From: Microbacterium nanhaiense
Lineage (GTDB): Bacteria; Actinomycetota; Actinomycetes; Actinomycetales; Microbacteriaceae
DNA length: 64,000 bases
NCBI RefSeq assembly: GCF_014646015.1
Contig: NZ_BMMQ01000003.1
Coordinates: forward strand, 310,001 to 374,000
Reading direction: 5' to 3'
Below, piece by piece: positions 2,593 to 22,868 of the stretch. Within the stretch, counting starts at the first letter, position 1, and each line of letters opens with the position of its first letter. A program made the translations under genes and the position numbers. The notes beneath the pieces are model-generated. The model was given only the letters and a program-made list of their open reading frames with translations, made no database searches and was not told where the DNA came from.

Positions 2593-4368
2593 ATGCGTCG
2601 TGCCCGCCGCGCCAGCACCGAGAGCGTCATTCGGCGCGTCGACACCCCCGAGGCGGCCCAGGCCCTCCTCGGCGTCGAGGCGGCGCCGGTCTCGCCGCTG
2701 CGCATCGAGGTGCCGGATCCGTCGCTGCTGCGTCACCTCGCGCTTCCCCGCAACCCCGGGCTGCGCACCACCGAGCTGGAGGTGCGGATCGCGCGCTTCG
2801 AGGCTCCCGTGCCGCGCTGGCGCGGGCGGCTCGGCCAGGTTCGCCACCTCGCCGGTTACGACCTGCGATTCGATGCGCCCTCGGGCGGCGCCACGGCCAC
2901 CGTGCGCACCACGAAGCTCACCTCGGTCGCGGAGATCGCGAACGCGCTGATCCCGGTGTTTACCCCCAACACGCCCTTCGCGGGCGCCGGATTCCCGCTC
3001 GTCGCCCTCGCGGCGGGCGCGGGCGACGATGCCCTCGCCCTGCTGCCGACGCGCTCCGTGCCGCCCGTCGAGGCGATGGTCGGGCGCCTCCAGGGTGTGG
3101 GGCTCAAGCGCGCCGACGTCCTCATCGGCGGACCCACACGCCTGGCCGACGAACTCGCGACCCACCACATCCCGACCGCCGCCGCGCTGCACGGATCGCC
3201 CCGCACCGAACTGCCCGCGATCGACCTGAACGTGCACAACCCGATCGGTCGGGAGTTGCTCTTCTCGCCCTCGCGCCCCGCGCGCCGGCTCATCCTGCTC
3301 GGCGCCCAGGCGCGCATCGTCACGGTCGAGGCGGGCGGCGACCCCATCGAGTTCGACGTGCGTCGCCCTCTGCCGGCCACCGTCGTGCGAAGGCTGCGCG
3401 GCGTCGAGAGCGTCTCGCTCGCCGGCCTGACGGAACTGCCCGAGGGCCTCGCCGCACGGTTCGCGGAGATCGCCGCAACCGACACCATCCTGCACTCGCT
3501 CCCCGCGTCGATCCAGATCGCGCCCGAGGCGCTCGCCCCCGAGCTGGTCGAGGTGATCCGGCGTCCCTACACCCAGGCGATGGGGCTGGAGCGCGAGCTG
3601 CGGCAGGTGGAGGCGCGCCGCATCGCGATGCGCGAGCACGGAGGCTACTTCCGTCTCGCCTCGGCCATCACGGCCGCGACGGGGGAGCGCTACCTCCCGA
3701 GCGTCAGCGTCATCCTCTCCACGATGCGCAGCGAGCTGATCCCCGGTGTGCTCCAGATGATGGCGAAGCAGACCTACGCCCACTTCGAGGTCATCGTCGT
3801 CGTCCACGGCGTGCCCGCACCGTCCCTCGACGGCGTCGACCTCGCGGGCCTCGAATACACGATCGTCGAGGTTCCGGACACCGTGCTCTTCGGCGCCGCG
3901 CTCGCCGAGGGCGTGCGGCGCTCGTCCGGCGACCTGATCACCAAGCTCGACGACGACGACTGGTACAGCGAGCACCACATCTCCGACCTCGTGCTCGCGC
4001 ACCTGTACTCGCGCGCCGACGTGGTCGGTAAGGCCACCGAGTACCTCTACTTCGAAGAGGTCGGGCAGACCGTCCACCGCACCTTCGCGACGGAGCGATA
4101 CCACGACCAGCTCGCCGGCGGCGCCATGCTTCTCTCCCGCGCGGCCTTCGATGCGCTCGGCGGGTGGCGCCCCACGCCCAACTCGACGGATCGCTCCGTG
4201 CTGATCCGCGTCGAGACCCAGGGCGGGGTCGGATACCGCGTGCAGAGCCTGGGGTACATGTACATTCGGCACGCCTCGAAGCACACCTGGGAGCGCACCG
4301 CGTCCCAGCTCGTGCAGGGGGCCTTCGAGCAGTGGCGCGGGTGGCGGTATCCCGAGGTGGGGTACTGA
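2593..4368 (+). CDS. Family 2 glycosyltransferase with long N-terminal extension
   Basis: A 591-residue protein. The first ~365 residues match no domain I recognise. From about residue 372 there is a GT-A fold: PSVSVILSTMRSE, then KLDDDDWYSEHH with the metal-binding acidic cluster, then LAGGAMLLSRAAF before the C-terminal end. The start at ATG 2593 has an AGGAG Shine-Dalgarno (2582-2586). TAGCCT at 2546-2551 could be the -10 of a leadered transcript. The N-terminal part may recognise the acceptor, which is inference. A large inverted repeat follows the stop. Confidence 0.9.
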   Translation: MRRARRASTESVIRRVDTPEAAQALLGVEAAPVSPLRIEVPDPSLLRHLALPRNPGLRTTELEVRIARFEAPVPRWRGRLGQVRHLAGYDLRFDAPSGGATATVRTTKLTSVAEIANALIPVFTPNTPFAGAGFPLVALAAGAGDDALALLPTRSVPPVEAMVGRLQGVGLKRADVLIGGPTRLADELATHHIPTAAALHGSPRTELPAIDLNVHNPIGRELLFSPSRPARRLILLGAQARIVTVEAGGDPIEFDVRRPLPATVVRRLRGVESVSLAGLTELPEGLAARFAEIAATDTILHSLPASIQIAPEALAPELVEVIRRPYTQAMGLERELRQVEARRIAMREHGGYFRLASAITAATGERYLPSVSVILSTMRSELIPGVLQMMAKQTYAHFEVIVVVHGVPAPSLDGVDLAGLEYTIVEVPDTVLFGAALAEGVRRSSGDLITKLDDDDWYSEHHISDLVLAHLYSRADVVGKATEYLYFEEVGQTVHRTFATERYHDQLAGGAMLLSRAAFDALGGWRPTPNSTDRSVLIRVETQGGVGYRVQSLGYMYIRHASKHTWERTASQLVQGAFEQWRGWRYPEVGY

Positions 4369-19419: not shown

Positions 19420-20415
19420 ATGAATCTCGACGCGATGGTTGACGAGCGGCGGGCCGAGTGGGAGCGCCTCGACGCCCTCGCGCGCCGCAAGCGACTCACG
19501 GGCGCCGAAGTGGACGAATTCGTGCACCTCTACCGGTCCGCCTCCGCGGATCTCGCGGGGATCAAGACCGCCGTCGGTCGCTCGCCGGTCGCCGATCACC
19601 TGTCCGGGATCCTCTCGCGCGCCCGGCTGAAGATCACGGGCGCGCCGGACAACATGCTGCGGCAGGTGCCTCGCTTCTTCGCGCGGCAGTTGCCGGCCGC
19701 GCTCTACCGGATCCGCTGGCTCACGCTCGCCGTGACGACCGTGTTCGTCGCGATCGTCGCGCTGATCGCATGGTGGATGCAGCAGGATCCGGCCTATATG
19801 GCGGCCATGGGTGACGAGACGCAGCTGCGGCAGTACGCCGAGAGCGACTTCGCCGACTATTACAGCGACCATCCCGAGACGGTGTTCGCCGGCATGGTGT
19901 GGTCGAACAACGCCTGGATCGCCGCGCAGACGATCATGTTCGGCATCACCGGGATCTGGCCCGTGTACGTCATCGCGCAGAACGCGGTCGGCCTCGGGAC
20001 CTCGGCCGCGGTGATGAACTGGTACGGTCACGGCGACGACTTCATCCTCCTCATCCTCCCGCACGGGCTCCTCGAGATGACCAGCATCTTCGTGGCGGGC
20101 GCCGCCGGGCTGCGGATCTTCTGGGCCTGGATCGCGCCCGGCGCGCGCAGTCGCGGATCCGCTCTCGCCTCCGAGGGGCGCGCGCTCGCGACGGTTGTCG
20201 TGGGGCTCATGCTCTCGCTCGCGGTATCGGGCGTGATCGAGGGCTTCGTGACGCGGCAGGAATGGCATCCGGCGATCAAGATCGGCATCGGCGCGCTCGC
20301 GCTCGCGGCGTTCCTGTTCTACATGCTGGTCATCGGCGGGCGCGCGGCCCGCGACGGCGAGACCGGCGACCTCACGGAGTACGAGGCCGGCACCACCCGC
20401 CTCGTCTCCGGCTGA
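19420..20415 (+). CDS. Stage II sporulation protein M-like membrane protein
   Basis: A 331-residue protein with a cytosolic helical N-terminus (RLTGAEVDEFVHLYRSASADL) and then about six transmembrane helices, including WIAAQTIMFGITGIWPVYV and the PHGLLEMTSIFVAGAAGLRIFW motif typical of SpoIIM-family (DUF95) proteins. This organism type does not sporulate; in non-sporulating Actinobacteria the role is unknown. Leaderless start: TAGGCT 7 nt before ATG 19420. Confidence 0.9.
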   Translation: MNLDAMVDERRAEWERLDALARRKRLTGAEVDEFVHLYRSASADLAGIKTAVGRSPVADHLSGILSRARLKITGAPDNMLRQVPRFFARQLPAALYRIRWLTLAVTTVFVAIVALIAWWMQQDPAYMAAMGDETQLRQYAESDFADYYSDHPETVFAGMVWSNNAWIAAQTIMFGITGIWPVYVIAQNAVGLGTSAAVMNWYGHGDDFILLILPHGLLEMTSIFVAGAAGLRIFWAWIAPGARSRGSALASEGRALATVVVGLMLSLAVSGVIEGFVTRQEWHPAIKIGIGALALAAFLFYMLVIGGRAARDGETGDLTEYEAGTTRLVSG

Positions 20416-20439
20416 CCCCGGGTGCGCCTGGCGCCCCGC

Positions 20440-20516
20440 GCCTCGGCCCGGGCCGGGCCCACGCCCAGGCCCTCACGCCCCGGCCCTCACGCCCCGGGCC
20501 TCGCGCCCCGGCCCGG
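20440..20516. repeat. Very G+C-rich short direct repeats
   Basis: This stretch after the SpoIIM-like gene repeats units like GGCCCTCACGCCCC, with self-complementary CCCGGGCC blocks. It runs straight into the first palindromic element. No gene seen. Confidence 0.5.
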
Positions 20517-20583
20517 GCCGTTCATATGACACCTTTCGCCACTTCTCGCGCGGATGACTACGCACATGTGTCATTCGAACGGC
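20517..20583. repeat. Palindromic element L1 (67 bp)
   Basis: Left arm GCCGTTCATATGACAC and right arm GTGTCATTCGAACGGC are complementary at 14 of 16 positions. The interior differs from the tandem array further on, but the arms are the same family. It lies on the 3' side of the DUF559 gene. Confidence 0.8.
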
Positions 20584-20610
20584 GTGGGGACGGATTGGGC
20601 GTGGGTCCTC

Positions 20611-20678
20611 GCCGTTCGTATGACCCTTTTGAGGTGATGTGGGGTGGGGTGACCGGGTAAAGGTGTCATTTGAACGGC
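20611..20678. repeat. Palindromic element L2 (68 bp)
   Basis: Left arm GCCGTTCGTATGACCC and right arm GTGTCATTTGAACGGC are nearly complementary and of the same family as L1 and the array. It ends 22 bp before the last base of the DUF559 coding sequence (stop at 20701), so it could also act as its 3' end. Confidence 0.8.
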
Positions 20679-20700
20679 GTGGCGGGTGGCGGGTGAGCGG

Positions 20701-21666
20701 TCACGTGAAGGAGGCCGCGAGGACGCGTGCGGTCCGTGACGGATCCCACCCGCCGGCCAGCAGCGCGGCGCGCACGCGCGCGGCGAGCCGGTACGGATCC
20801 GCGAGCAATTCCTTCGTGACCTCGATCACGTTCCACCCGGCGGCGCGGAGGCGCGCGATGCGCTCGACGTCGGCCGCATAGGTGCGCGCGTGCTGCTCGC
20901 CCTGGTATTCGACGATGACGTGGAAATCGGGGAAGCACATGTCGACGCATCCGAGGAAGGTTCCCCGGCTGTCGCGGATGTCGCGGTTCAGCTCGGGCAT
21001 CGGCAGCCCGGCGCGGAGGAGCGCGATCCTGGTCATCGATTCTCGCGGCGACCACGAATCGACCGCGATGAGCTCGAGAGCGGCACGAAGCTTCGCGCCG
21101 CCGATGCGGCGACCGGCGAACACGGCGGCGCGCAGTTCGCCGATCGTCGCGAGGGGTGGCGTGCCGGCGCCCGGTCGTCCGTCGCGCCACACCCGGCACA
21201 GGTAGTCGCCCGCGACGACGAGGGTGTCGAGGGAGCGGTGGGAGAGCATCGCCCACGTCGTTGCGGGCGATGCAACGGGAAGCCCGTCGCGGAGCACTCG
21301 GCGCGCCATCCTCGGGAGCGCTCGATGCCCCGTGAGGCCCGCCACGCGAGGGAAGCTTGCGTTGCCGAACACCGTGACGTGAAGCTCCTCGCGCACGTGA
21401 ATCGGCACGCCCCATGCGGCCGCGGCGGTCTCGTGGCTGAAGAACTGATTCGGCCCGAGGAGCGGCGCCGCGGCGCGGGCGAGACGGAGGACCCTGTGCT
21501 CGGGCGGAGCATCGTCGGGTTCGGGCGGCAGGGTCGTTCGTGCGCCGCGGAAGGGGGCCATGAGGTCGGATCCGTTGAGGCGGCTCCGGCTGACGCCCAT
21601 GGAGATTGCCTCGGAGACGTGGAAGGCGGATCCGAGTTGCTCGGGCAGCGGGGTGCGTGCGGTCAT
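20701..21666 (-). CDS. DUF559-type nuclease-like protein with AbiEi-like N-terminus
   Basis: A 321-residue protein. The N-terminal ~90 residues resemble the winged-helix region of AbiEi-like proteins (LPEQLGSAFHVSEAISMGVSRSRLNGSDL). The C-terminal domain (~205-320) has the Vsr/DUF559 PD-(D/E)XK arrangement: Asp242 in GCVDMCFPDF, then Glu253 and Gln255 in VEYQGEQH, a probable metal-dependent nuclease site. ATG 21666 is chosen because upstream in-frame ATGs would fall in or beyond repeat R0. No Shine-Dalgarno is obvious. No antitoxin, methylase or transposase gene is adjacent, and palindromes flank it on both sides. Biological role unknown. Confidence 0.82.
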   Translation of the reverse strand: MTARTPLPEQLGSAFHVSEAISMGVSRSRLNGSDLMAPFRGARTTLPPEPDDAPPEHRVLRLARAAAPLLGPNQFFSHETAAAAWGVPIHVREELHVTVFGNASFPRVAGLTGHRALPRMARRVLRDGLPVASPATTWAMLSHRSLDTLVVAGDYLCRVWRDGRPGAGTPPLATIGELRAAVFAGRRIGGAKLRAALELIAVDSWSPRESMTRIALLRAGLPMPELNRDIRDSRGTFLGCVDMCFPDFHVIVEYQGEQHARTYAADVERIARLRAAGWNVIEVTKELLADPYRLAARVRAALLAGGWDPSRTARVLAASFT

Positions 21667-21721
21667 GCGTCGAGCGTGGCCGCTTCTGCCGGATCCCGTT
21701 TTGTCTCTCCACAAGCCGTCC

Positions 21722-21788
21722 GCCGTTGACATGACACGTTTCCCCAGTTCGCATGGGAAAAACGCGCGATAAGTGTCATTTCGAGGGT
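21722..21788. repeat. Palindromic element R0, upstream of the DUF559 gene
   Basis: Left arm GCCGTTGACATGACAC and right end GTGTCATTTCGAGGGT match the repeat family with some decay on the right. It lies 55 bp upstream of the DUF559 start codon, where promoter or operator function would be expected. Confidence 0.7.
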
Positions 21789-21929
21789 GGGAAAGAGGTG
21801 CCTGGGGATTGGTAAACGGGGTCCCAGCGGTACCTGCGTGCGAGGACCGTCGATCGCGCGAGTGGCGCCCGACGATCCCCGCGCAATGGATATCCGGATC
21901 CACAGCGAACGCGTCGCGTCCGCGAGCCG

Positions 21930-22370
21930 ACCCGTTCGAATGACGCGTGTGAAGGGTGAGCGGCCCCGCAACCGGCGAAACGTGTCATTTCTAGGGCGGG
22001 CACCCGTTGGGATGACACGCGTGAGGGGTCGCGCGCCCCGCCACTAGCGAAAGGTGTCATTTCAACGGTGAGGGCACCCGTTCATATGACACGCGTGCAC
22101 GGTCACGCGCCCGGCAACTAGCGAAAGGTGTCATTTCAACGGTGAGGGCACCCGTTCATATGACACGCGTGAGGGGTTACGCGCCCCGCGACTATCGACA
22201 AGTGTCATATGAACGGTGAGGGCACCCGTTCGTATGACACCCGTGAGGGGTCACGCGCCCCGCCACTAGCGAAAGGTGTCATCTCAACGGTGAGGGCACC
22301 CATTCATATGACACGCGTGTGCGGTCTCGCGCCCGGCGACTAGCGAAAGGTGTCATATGAACGGCAGGCG
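21930..22370. repeat. Tandem array of palindromic repeats, 74-bp period
   Basis: Units begin at 21930 (degenerate), 22002, 22076, 22150, 22224 and 22298; the last five are spaced exactly 74 bp. Each has outer arms CCGTTCATATGACAC and GTGTCATNTNAACGG, perfect over 15 bp in the unit 22152-22216. Most have an inner dyad GCGTGA-GGGG-TCACGC, then a block like CACTAGCGAAAG. The linker TGAGGGCAC joins the right arm of one unit to the left arm of the next, itself flanked by AACGG/CCGTT, so alternative pairings exist. No open frame of interest. The stretch 21789-21929 between R0 and the array shows no gene and no clear repeat. Confidence 0.9.
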
Positions 22371-22439
22371 CGGCACGCGCAGGAGGGTGGCACGGGCGTG
22401 AGGGGCCCGGGGGGAGAGAAAAGAGTGAGGAGAGAGTGG

Positions 22440-22868
22440 CTAGGCGCAGTCGTTGCAGATGCCGCGGAAGGTCACGGCGGCCTCGAGGATGCGCATGCCG
22501 TGGGGGTCGGAGGGGGTGAGGCACGGGGCCTCGCCGACCACGCACTCGACGTCCTCGACGCGGCCGCAGACCACGCACTGCACGTGGTGATGATTGTCGC
22601 CGCGGGCGAGTTCGTAGAGCGAGCTCGCCGCACCCGGCAGGCTCACGCGCTGCGCGATGCGGGCATCGGTCAGGTCGTTGACGATTCCGTGCACCGTCTG
22701 CAGGGCGATGCCGGGGATGTCGCGGTGCACCATCTCGTGCAGTGCATCGACCGGGGCGTGGGCGCTCTGCGAAAGAGCCTCGAGAACGGCGACGCGCTGG
22801 GCCGTCACGCGGAGCCCCGCGGTGCGCAGTCGCGCCGGCGCATCGACGGGGGCGTGCACGTGGGTCAT
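22440..22868 (-). CDS. Fur-family transcriptional regulator
   Basis: A 142-residue protein: winged helix (LRTAGLRVTAQRVAVLEALSQ) followed by a dimerisation domain with HHHVQCVVCGRVEDVEC and a C-terminal CNDC, together two CxxC pairs for structural zinc. It may be a FurA/CatR- or Zur-type repressor; the effector metal or peroxide sense cannot be fixed from sequence, and no catalase gene is adjacent. The ATG at 22868 has TAGACT (minus strand 22875-22880) 6 nt upstream, so it is leaderless. Confidence 0.9.
   Translation of the reverse strand: MTHVHAPVDAPARLRTAGLRVTAQRVAVLEALSQSAHAPVDALHEMVHRDIPGIALQTVHGIVNDLTDARIAQRVSLPGAASSLYELARGDNHHHVQCVVCGRVEDVECVVGEAPCLTPSDPHGMRILEAAVTFRGICNDCA

Follow-up and report, generated by a model that had tools for sequence, protein, structure and literature searches.

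The window analysed here, a stretch of 64,000 nucleotides from Microbacterium nanhaiense (contig NZ_BMMQ01000003.1), contains a DUF559 gene (PF04480, above the Pfam cut-off) on the minus strand at positions 20701-21666, encoding a protein of 321 aa and lying between palindromes of a single family, hereafter the window family. Two of these are found 3' of the gene, one at 20612-20677, 23 nt past the stop codon, and a second at 20518-20582. On the 5' side a palindrome at 21723-21787 is placed 56 nt ahead of the start codon, and is followed by a further one at 21932-21996, whose outer arm has decayed, and by an array of five copies with a period of 74 nt (22004-22068, 22078-22142, 22152-22216, 22226-22290 and 22300-22364); in the third of these the outer 15 nt of the arms are fully complementary. 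The occurrence of same-family palindromes on both sides of the gene, proposed in an earlier note on this DNA, was thus borne out with nine elements, two of them 3' and seven 5' (two single and five in the array). When the window was searched with GTGTCATNNNAACGG allowing up to two mismatches, 20 matches were obtained, 18 of them inside the nine elements, whereas 100 shuffles averaged 3.0 matches and never gave more than 9, which excludes a chance origin of the nine palindromes.

The DUF559 gene is the sole gene of this unit. Its neighbours, labelled by eye, are a SpoIIM-like gene (19420-20415, plus strand) and a Fur-like gene (22440-22868, minus strand), which converge on it from both sides. 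The ends of the blastn alignment with the sister species, here called G230, delimit an insert of 2,023 nt (20416-22438) which, besides the gene and its palindromes, comprises a C-rich, low-complexity flank with short tandem repeats (20416-20517) and a G-rich flank (22365-22438).

The window protein has an AbiEi-like region at approximately residues 66-151 and a Vsr/DUF559-type nuclease domain at approximately residues 205-305. The first was matched by PADLOC as AbiEi (E 1.5e-6); DUF559 was the sole Pfam family above the cut-off, and NCBIfam returned a DUF559 protein model below its threshold. Among 15 aligned members of the family Pfam detected DUF559 in all 15 and, weakly, the MTES_1575 nuclease model in 10 (best E 0.0032), a domain termed Vsr-type REase in an extract of PMC3710099. 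Residues E209, D242, E253, H259 and D266 were invariant in the 15 homologues, and the residue following E253-x was Q, H or L, not K. E209, D242, H259 and D266 would presumably fit the EDxHD motif. The best PDB profile match was to an endonuclease-like protein at a weak E value of 0.23, and the homing endonuclease I-Bth0305I was not among the PDB profile matches up to E 10. Single-sequence structure prediction gave a mean pLDDT of 44.5, too low for a fold search. A search of PHROGs yielded only a match of E 0.15, and the protein had no match in viral contigs.

In the host genome (3.23 Mb, 25 contigs) the window family comprises at least 42 elements in 23 clusters, with 84 half-sites; this number is a lower bound, since elements were counted in stretches around pattern matches. 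Across the genome the exact core pattern matched 39 times, including one match that reads an already counted element at greater length. The palindromes are 65-66 nt long, both arms carry the half-site consensus CCGTTSRWATGACACYTNTNNNNNGT with CCGTT at the foot (84 half-sites), and the distance between heptamers is 35 or 36 nt, a spacing of 33 to 38 having been permitted in the search. Thirteen of the 23 clusters lie between convergent genes, and nine between genes in tandem; one falls inside a predicted ORF, and divergent gene pairs have none. The cluster at 21723-22364 was moved by hand from divergent to tandem because the gene caller had missed the Fur-like gene. Read by eye, the genes beside the clusters look ordinary. 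Cluster flanks are rich in C on the left (0.51) and in G on the right (0.50), whereas the sequence downstream of 80 other stop codons has 0.37 C and 0.33 G; the skew may be a trace of repair synthesis. The window-family patterns had no match in viral contigs, plasmid or phage collections, or a collection of genome contigs.

We then compared the left and right arms, taking one element per cluster (23). Inner positions matched in 123 of 299 cases against 107.8 expected from shuffled arms (P 0.04), and no individual variable position fell below P 0.05. As the inner positions match only slightly above shuffled arms, each arm would seem to serve for the most part as a duplex half-site of its own, kept at a constant distance from the other, an arrangement expected of a site read by a protein dimer. 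A maintained stem is accordingly unlikely, and we set aside a hairpin or RNA reading; an Rfam search returned nothing. Near-perfect palindromes were seen in three elements (in L076, L077 and L086). A terminator reading was dropped as well, a separate terminator-like GC-rich hairpin accompanying the palindrome between holA and rpsT (gene names are our own labels), and the integron attC and MITE readings were abandoned after inspection by eye.

The sister species G230 (HolA 91% identical to that of this genome) has a single nucleotide between the facing stop codons of the SpoIIM-like and Fur-like genes, where the 2,023-nt insert lies here. The blastn alignment stops at 20415 and resumes at 22439, no G230 base lying in between; the junction is therefore an empty site for an insert with the gene and its palindromes. 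At this one clean empty site no target-site duplication was recognised by eye. The same junction measures 4 nt in G345 and holds other genes in G039. In G177 a weak inverted repeat is present, different in sequence and pairing at 16 of 20 positions (0 of 300 shuffles as good); it matches the C10 family of this genome at 13 of 26 positions, so that membership is not clear. A solo palindrome considered at the junction of G134 was rejected as not significant, since 22 of 300 shuffles were equally good.

Base-by-base comparison with the sister covers three of the 23 cluster sites. At the holA-rpsT site this genome carries a solo palindrome and G230 none, and palindromes of other sequence stand in G345 and G177; at the third site, G230 carries a different palindrome where this genome has the window family. 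That palindrome belongs to the AAAGAACAAGGTT family and is located at 14880-14944 of L251 with a related copy nearby (3853-3917); among the G230 loci examined no DUF559 gene bears it. An "everted" arrangement suspected in G230 turned out to consist of ordinary inward palindromes of 60 nt. No window-family half-site was found in the G230 genome, whose best DUF559 match to the window protein has 51% identity. The simplest reading is a recent gain and spread of the window family in this lineage, and the empty site of the sister indicates that the unit and its palindromes may well be mobile.

The earlier note had named two observations that would speak against a link, namely related homologues without palindromes, and scattered palindromes unconnected with DUF559 genes. 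Both seemed at hand: the window-family half-site is absent from 365 other genomes of the genus, save for one lone half-site with a single mismatch in G089, even though a homologue (E 1e-40) is found in 237 of 366 genomes, and the family is scattered in 23 clusters in its own genome. However, PF04480 (E 0.001) detects five DUF559 genes in this genome, and every one of them lies between copies of a palindrome, the sequence of which differs from gene to gene; one adjoins the window family and the other four have families of their own. The 5' copy lies approximately 740 nt upstream of the C6 gene and within approximately 160 nt of the other four. Most of the homologues examined in other genomes likewise bear their own palindromes on both sides, so that the reading of palindromes with no link to DUF559 was overturned.

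To score this arrangement, each locus was searched for a pair of 12-mer arms upstream of the gene and for a matching pair downstream of it, the maximum score being 36. The set of 74 loci was made of the window gene, its four paralogues, the 29 best homologues and 40 more (20 next best and 20 weaker). The same palindrome was found on both sides at a score of at least 32 in 57 of the 74, and of at least 33 in 47. HolA loci reached these values in 1 and 0 of 30 cases, respectively, and none of 80 other genes of this genome reached 32 (genes of 600-1500 nt only, excluding those near stretch ends or less than 800 nt from window-family elements). Flanks paired across loci did so in 16 and 8 of 150 cases, a rate that is at least partly due to related loci sharing palindrome families. 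The threshold is empirical and the homologues are partly non-independent. Few of the loci are close relatives, 24 of 1,035 locus pairs being at least 70% identical. When all 26 PF04480 genes (E 0.001) of seven genomes were taken, 18 scored at least 32, against 42 of 650 cross pairs. This E value misses at least two homologues in the seven genomes, L103 (G345) and L113 (G134), both of which are included in the 74-locus set. In 53 loci, leaving out the four paralogues, the palindromes lie at a median distance of 80 nt before the protein match and 13 nt after the stop codon (two of the 53 values, -1070 and -1005, are frame artefacts).

Seventeen of the 74 loci, and eight of the 26 in the seven-genome set, fell below 32. 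Two of these eight genes nevertheless look bracketed, L313 by half-site search and L301 by eye. In G134 (L055, and L113 at 1380-1491) there are palindromes with arms ATGCACC / GGTGCAT, two of which form a tandem pair next to a DUF559 homologue that did not pass the two-sided test. In L296 (G230:C2:408519-408794) a DUF559-type domain lies within a 1741-aa open frame at which no bracketing palindromes were found; our guess is that this frame is an MTES_1575-like helicase fusion. Some palindrome families, on the other hand, had no DUF559 gene among the loci examined, namely TTCATTTCTGGCAC in G345 and G177 and AGAACAAGGTT in G230. Copies of the former are located at L130:1430-1487, L131:1406-1463 and L209:6987-7042; the family occupies the holA-rpsT site in G345 and G177, and in G177 another copy lies approximately 2 kb from the SpoIIM-Fur junction.

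In a class-wide sample PF04480 (E 0.001) was detected in 166 of 246 genomes, and 12 of 70 loci scored at least 33, against 1 of 400 cross pairs. These 12, one of which belongs to the same genus, were one of the 30 best matches and 11 of 40 loci that had been chosen to represent a range of families and to have open frames of the usual length. With only 12 of 70 loci at this score, DUF559 alone does not imply palindromes; the partnership extends beyond the genus, yet does not hold for all DUF559 proteins.

Alignment of 57 loci on their palindrome centres revealed a common skeleton around GYTCnnnTnGC, the other bases varying from locus to locus; of 40 palindromes with GYTC..GARC ends, 36 were exactly 61 nt long. 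We also calculated the correlation between protein identity and half-site similarity by a Mantel test. Nine of the 57 loci were removed for a different geometry, a shifted anchor or duplication, and two more because their extracted protein was short or empty; the remaining 46 gave a rho of 0.444 (0 of 2000 permutations as high), and pairs below 60% identity a rho of 0.223 (2 of 2000). Half-site similarity rises with overall protein identity, so common descent accounts for some of the correlation. The 11 pairs with more than 80% identity had 0.92 of half-site positions in common. Four paralogue pairs from the same genome (51-55% identity) shared 0.38-0.50 of these positions, much as pairs of similar identity from different genomes did (0.45); the arm sequence tracks the protein rather than the genome. 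In four pairs of orthologues, one member here and the other in G230 (70-85% identity), the same palindrome or a shifted version of it has been kept, for example GCTCCGGTCGCAGAATCTGCTCCTCC here and GTTCCCGTTCGAGAATCTGCTCTTCC in the sister. Among protein regions, residues 61-110 in the AbiEi-like part nominally gave the strongest correlation with half-site similarity, the regional differences being small. Families differ in copy number, from 4 by exact pattern up to at least 42; the exact patterns of the C10 and G158 families each match twice beside the gene and twice at other places. The nuclease-palindrome partnership put forward in the earlier note hence emerges in a stronger form, in which each nuclease has its own palindrome and geometry is conserved more than sequence.

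The likeness to RAYT transposases and their REP palindromes, also drawn in the earlier note, holds for how the system would work and fails for membership. In REPtrons (REP plus RAYT), as here, the enzyme gene is flanked by cognate palindromes. REPs are described in an excerpt of PMC3733652 as dispersed intergenic copies, many adjoining the 3' ends of convergent genes, and the copies of the window family are dispersed in the same manner, 13 of 23 clusters being convergent. TnpA-REP and REP co-evolve, according to the abstract-level text of PMC8266576, and here the Mantel test and the orthologue pairs point in the same direction. The enzymes, in contrast, are a DUF559 (Vsr-type) nuclease here and an HUH / Y1 tyrosine transposase there, and neither Pfam nor NCBIfam found an HUH / Y1 domain in the window protein. 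No GTAG or CGTC tag was present at the palindrome foot in 84 half-sites, and the palindromes are approximately 60 nt long (65-66 in the window family), whereas REP palindromes measure 20-40 bp (PMC3733652). Moreover, the arms of the window family vary nearly independently, which suggests duplex half-sites and not single-strand hairpins. Enzyme class, tag and length all differ, so the system falls outside the REPtrons.

The closest enzyme precedent would appear to be I-Bth0305I, an EDxHD homing endonuclease with a Vsr-like fold, although membership by sequence is not supported. According to PMC3943268, this enzyme dimerises on a target of nearly 60 bp, a size with which the 61-nt palindromes are consistent; in both cases a nuclease domain is tethered to DNA-binding parts. 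The EDxHD enzymes described there belong to group I introns, whereas the gene considered here stands alone, with copies of its putative site on both sides, and that putative site also occurs dispersed. The AbiEi-like region recalls the AbiE type IV toxin-antitoxin systems, from which the unit differs by the fusion to a nuclease domain and by the bracketing palindromes; no AbiEii toxin gene lies beside the window gene, the neighbours being, by eye, SpoIIM-like and Fur-like. An IS element or MITE with a DDE transposase finds no counterpart either, the only gene of the unit having no match to a transposase family. Rpn proteins are PD-(D/E)XK recombination-promoting nucleases tied to DNA mobility; nuclease type and the link to mobility are shared, but the family is different, and we know of no cognate palindromes bracketing Rpn genes. 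VsrA of Caulobacter, with a DUF559 domain of Vsr type, has been proposed as a mismatch repair nuclease (PMC12907096), and the section of that paper at hand does not mention palindromes. No literature linking DUF559 proteins with palindromes was found in a search that left subscription papers largely outside its reach, in keeping with the opinion of the earlier note that such a partnership had not been described; PMC8861277 and PMC9454445 contain both words, their titles concerning CRISPR and NAD metabolism.

Taken together, the placement of a predicted nuclease gene between copies of its own palindrome in many actinobacteria points to an undescribed partnership. It is very likely that the DUF559 protein specifically recognises its own palindrome, and that it also mobilises it is rather probable. 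In the mechanism that we propose, a homodimer would bind the two inverted half-sites (approximately 26 bp each) of the approximately 60-bp site through its AbiEi-like N-terminal parts, so that both nuclease domains would sit above the 13-14 bp at the centre, which are not conserved. A cut at the palindrome centre, followed by repair that copies the site, would result in a homing-like or transposition-like spread; palindromes would land in intergenic places, mainly at the 3' ends of convergent genes, and occasionally the whole palindrome-gene-palindrome unit would spread. Solo palindromes would then be products of this spread or scars of lost units. Dimer binding, cleavage and movement by this nuclease rather than by another enzyme are what we infer from the comparisons above, and we regard the whole model, a Vsr-type nuclease that binds its own palindrome as a dimer and spreads it, as fairly probable. 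We also lean, somewhat less firmly, to a broader reading of these units as selfish palindrome-nuclease elements, in which a DUF559 nuclease founds, maintains and spreads a family of approximately 60 bp by duplex cutting, with a specificity that drifts fast and so gives private families, several per genome; they would be an independent PD-(D/E)XK counterpart of the HUH-based REP/RAYT system.

AbiEi antitoxins bind inverted repeats at their own promoter. The similarity of the window protein to them, together with the 5' palindrome at a median of 80 nt before the protein match, would be explained if the palindromes were operators through which the protein represses its own gene and a regulon, its nuclease domain acting elsewhere. 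We hold this to be unlikely: an equally conserved copy lies at a median of 13 nt past the stop codon, the cluster setting (13 of 23 convergent, none divergent) is the opposite of that of promoters, and the insert and its empty site are left unexplained. A role in defence, with the nuclease attacking incoming DNA and the chromosomal palindromes marking self or holding the nuclease as decoys, seems to us still less probable. It could account for the PADLOC AbiEi matches, the several different nuclease-palindrome pairs per genome and the fast divergence of specificity; the window family, however, is unmatched in viral, plasmid and phage collections, the copy number differs between families (4 by exact pattern, at least 42 in the window family), and the compact unit has no second gene.

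An equally improbable explanation is that another enzyme moves palindromes and gene, with the DUF559 protein carried along as a passenger. The families for which no DUF559 gene was seen among the loci examined would suit it, but the correspondence of one family per DUF559 protein, the co-divergence and the conserved spacing are hard to explain unless the protein reads the site, and no other gene is present in the window unit. Placement beside stop codons resembles that of REPs (PMC3733652, excerpt), so these could be ordinary REP-like terminators with DUF559 genes falling in palindrome-rich intergenic places by chance. This we consider highly improbable, as it is contradicted by the 74-locus scores (the score attained by 57 of 74 DUF559 loci was attained by one HolA locus in 30 and by none of the 80 other genes), by the seven-genome set and by the Mantel test; the arm sequence follows the protein and not the genome, and between holA and rpsT a hairpin exists in the place of the rpsT terminator besides the palindrome.

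Recognition of its own palindrome by each nuclease would offer a candidate function for the many proteins that carry the label "unknown function", and would propose a source for the private palindrome families of actinobacterial genomes. It also suggests that an enzyme has been paired with its palindromes on two or more occasions, the enzymes being unrelated. As each protein has a natural site beside it, many co-varying enzyme-site pairs could be obtained, which makes the recognition code directly testable, and these pairs could yield long-site nucleases. The window family, with at least 42 copies here and absent from a close sister, is a good place to look for palindrome dispersal in progress. 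One of the stretches around its copies (L006, near 1508; G000:C1:535365) has an N within a palindrome arm that is duplicated in part, which may reflect an assembly gap or a masked base, and possibly a collapsed array.
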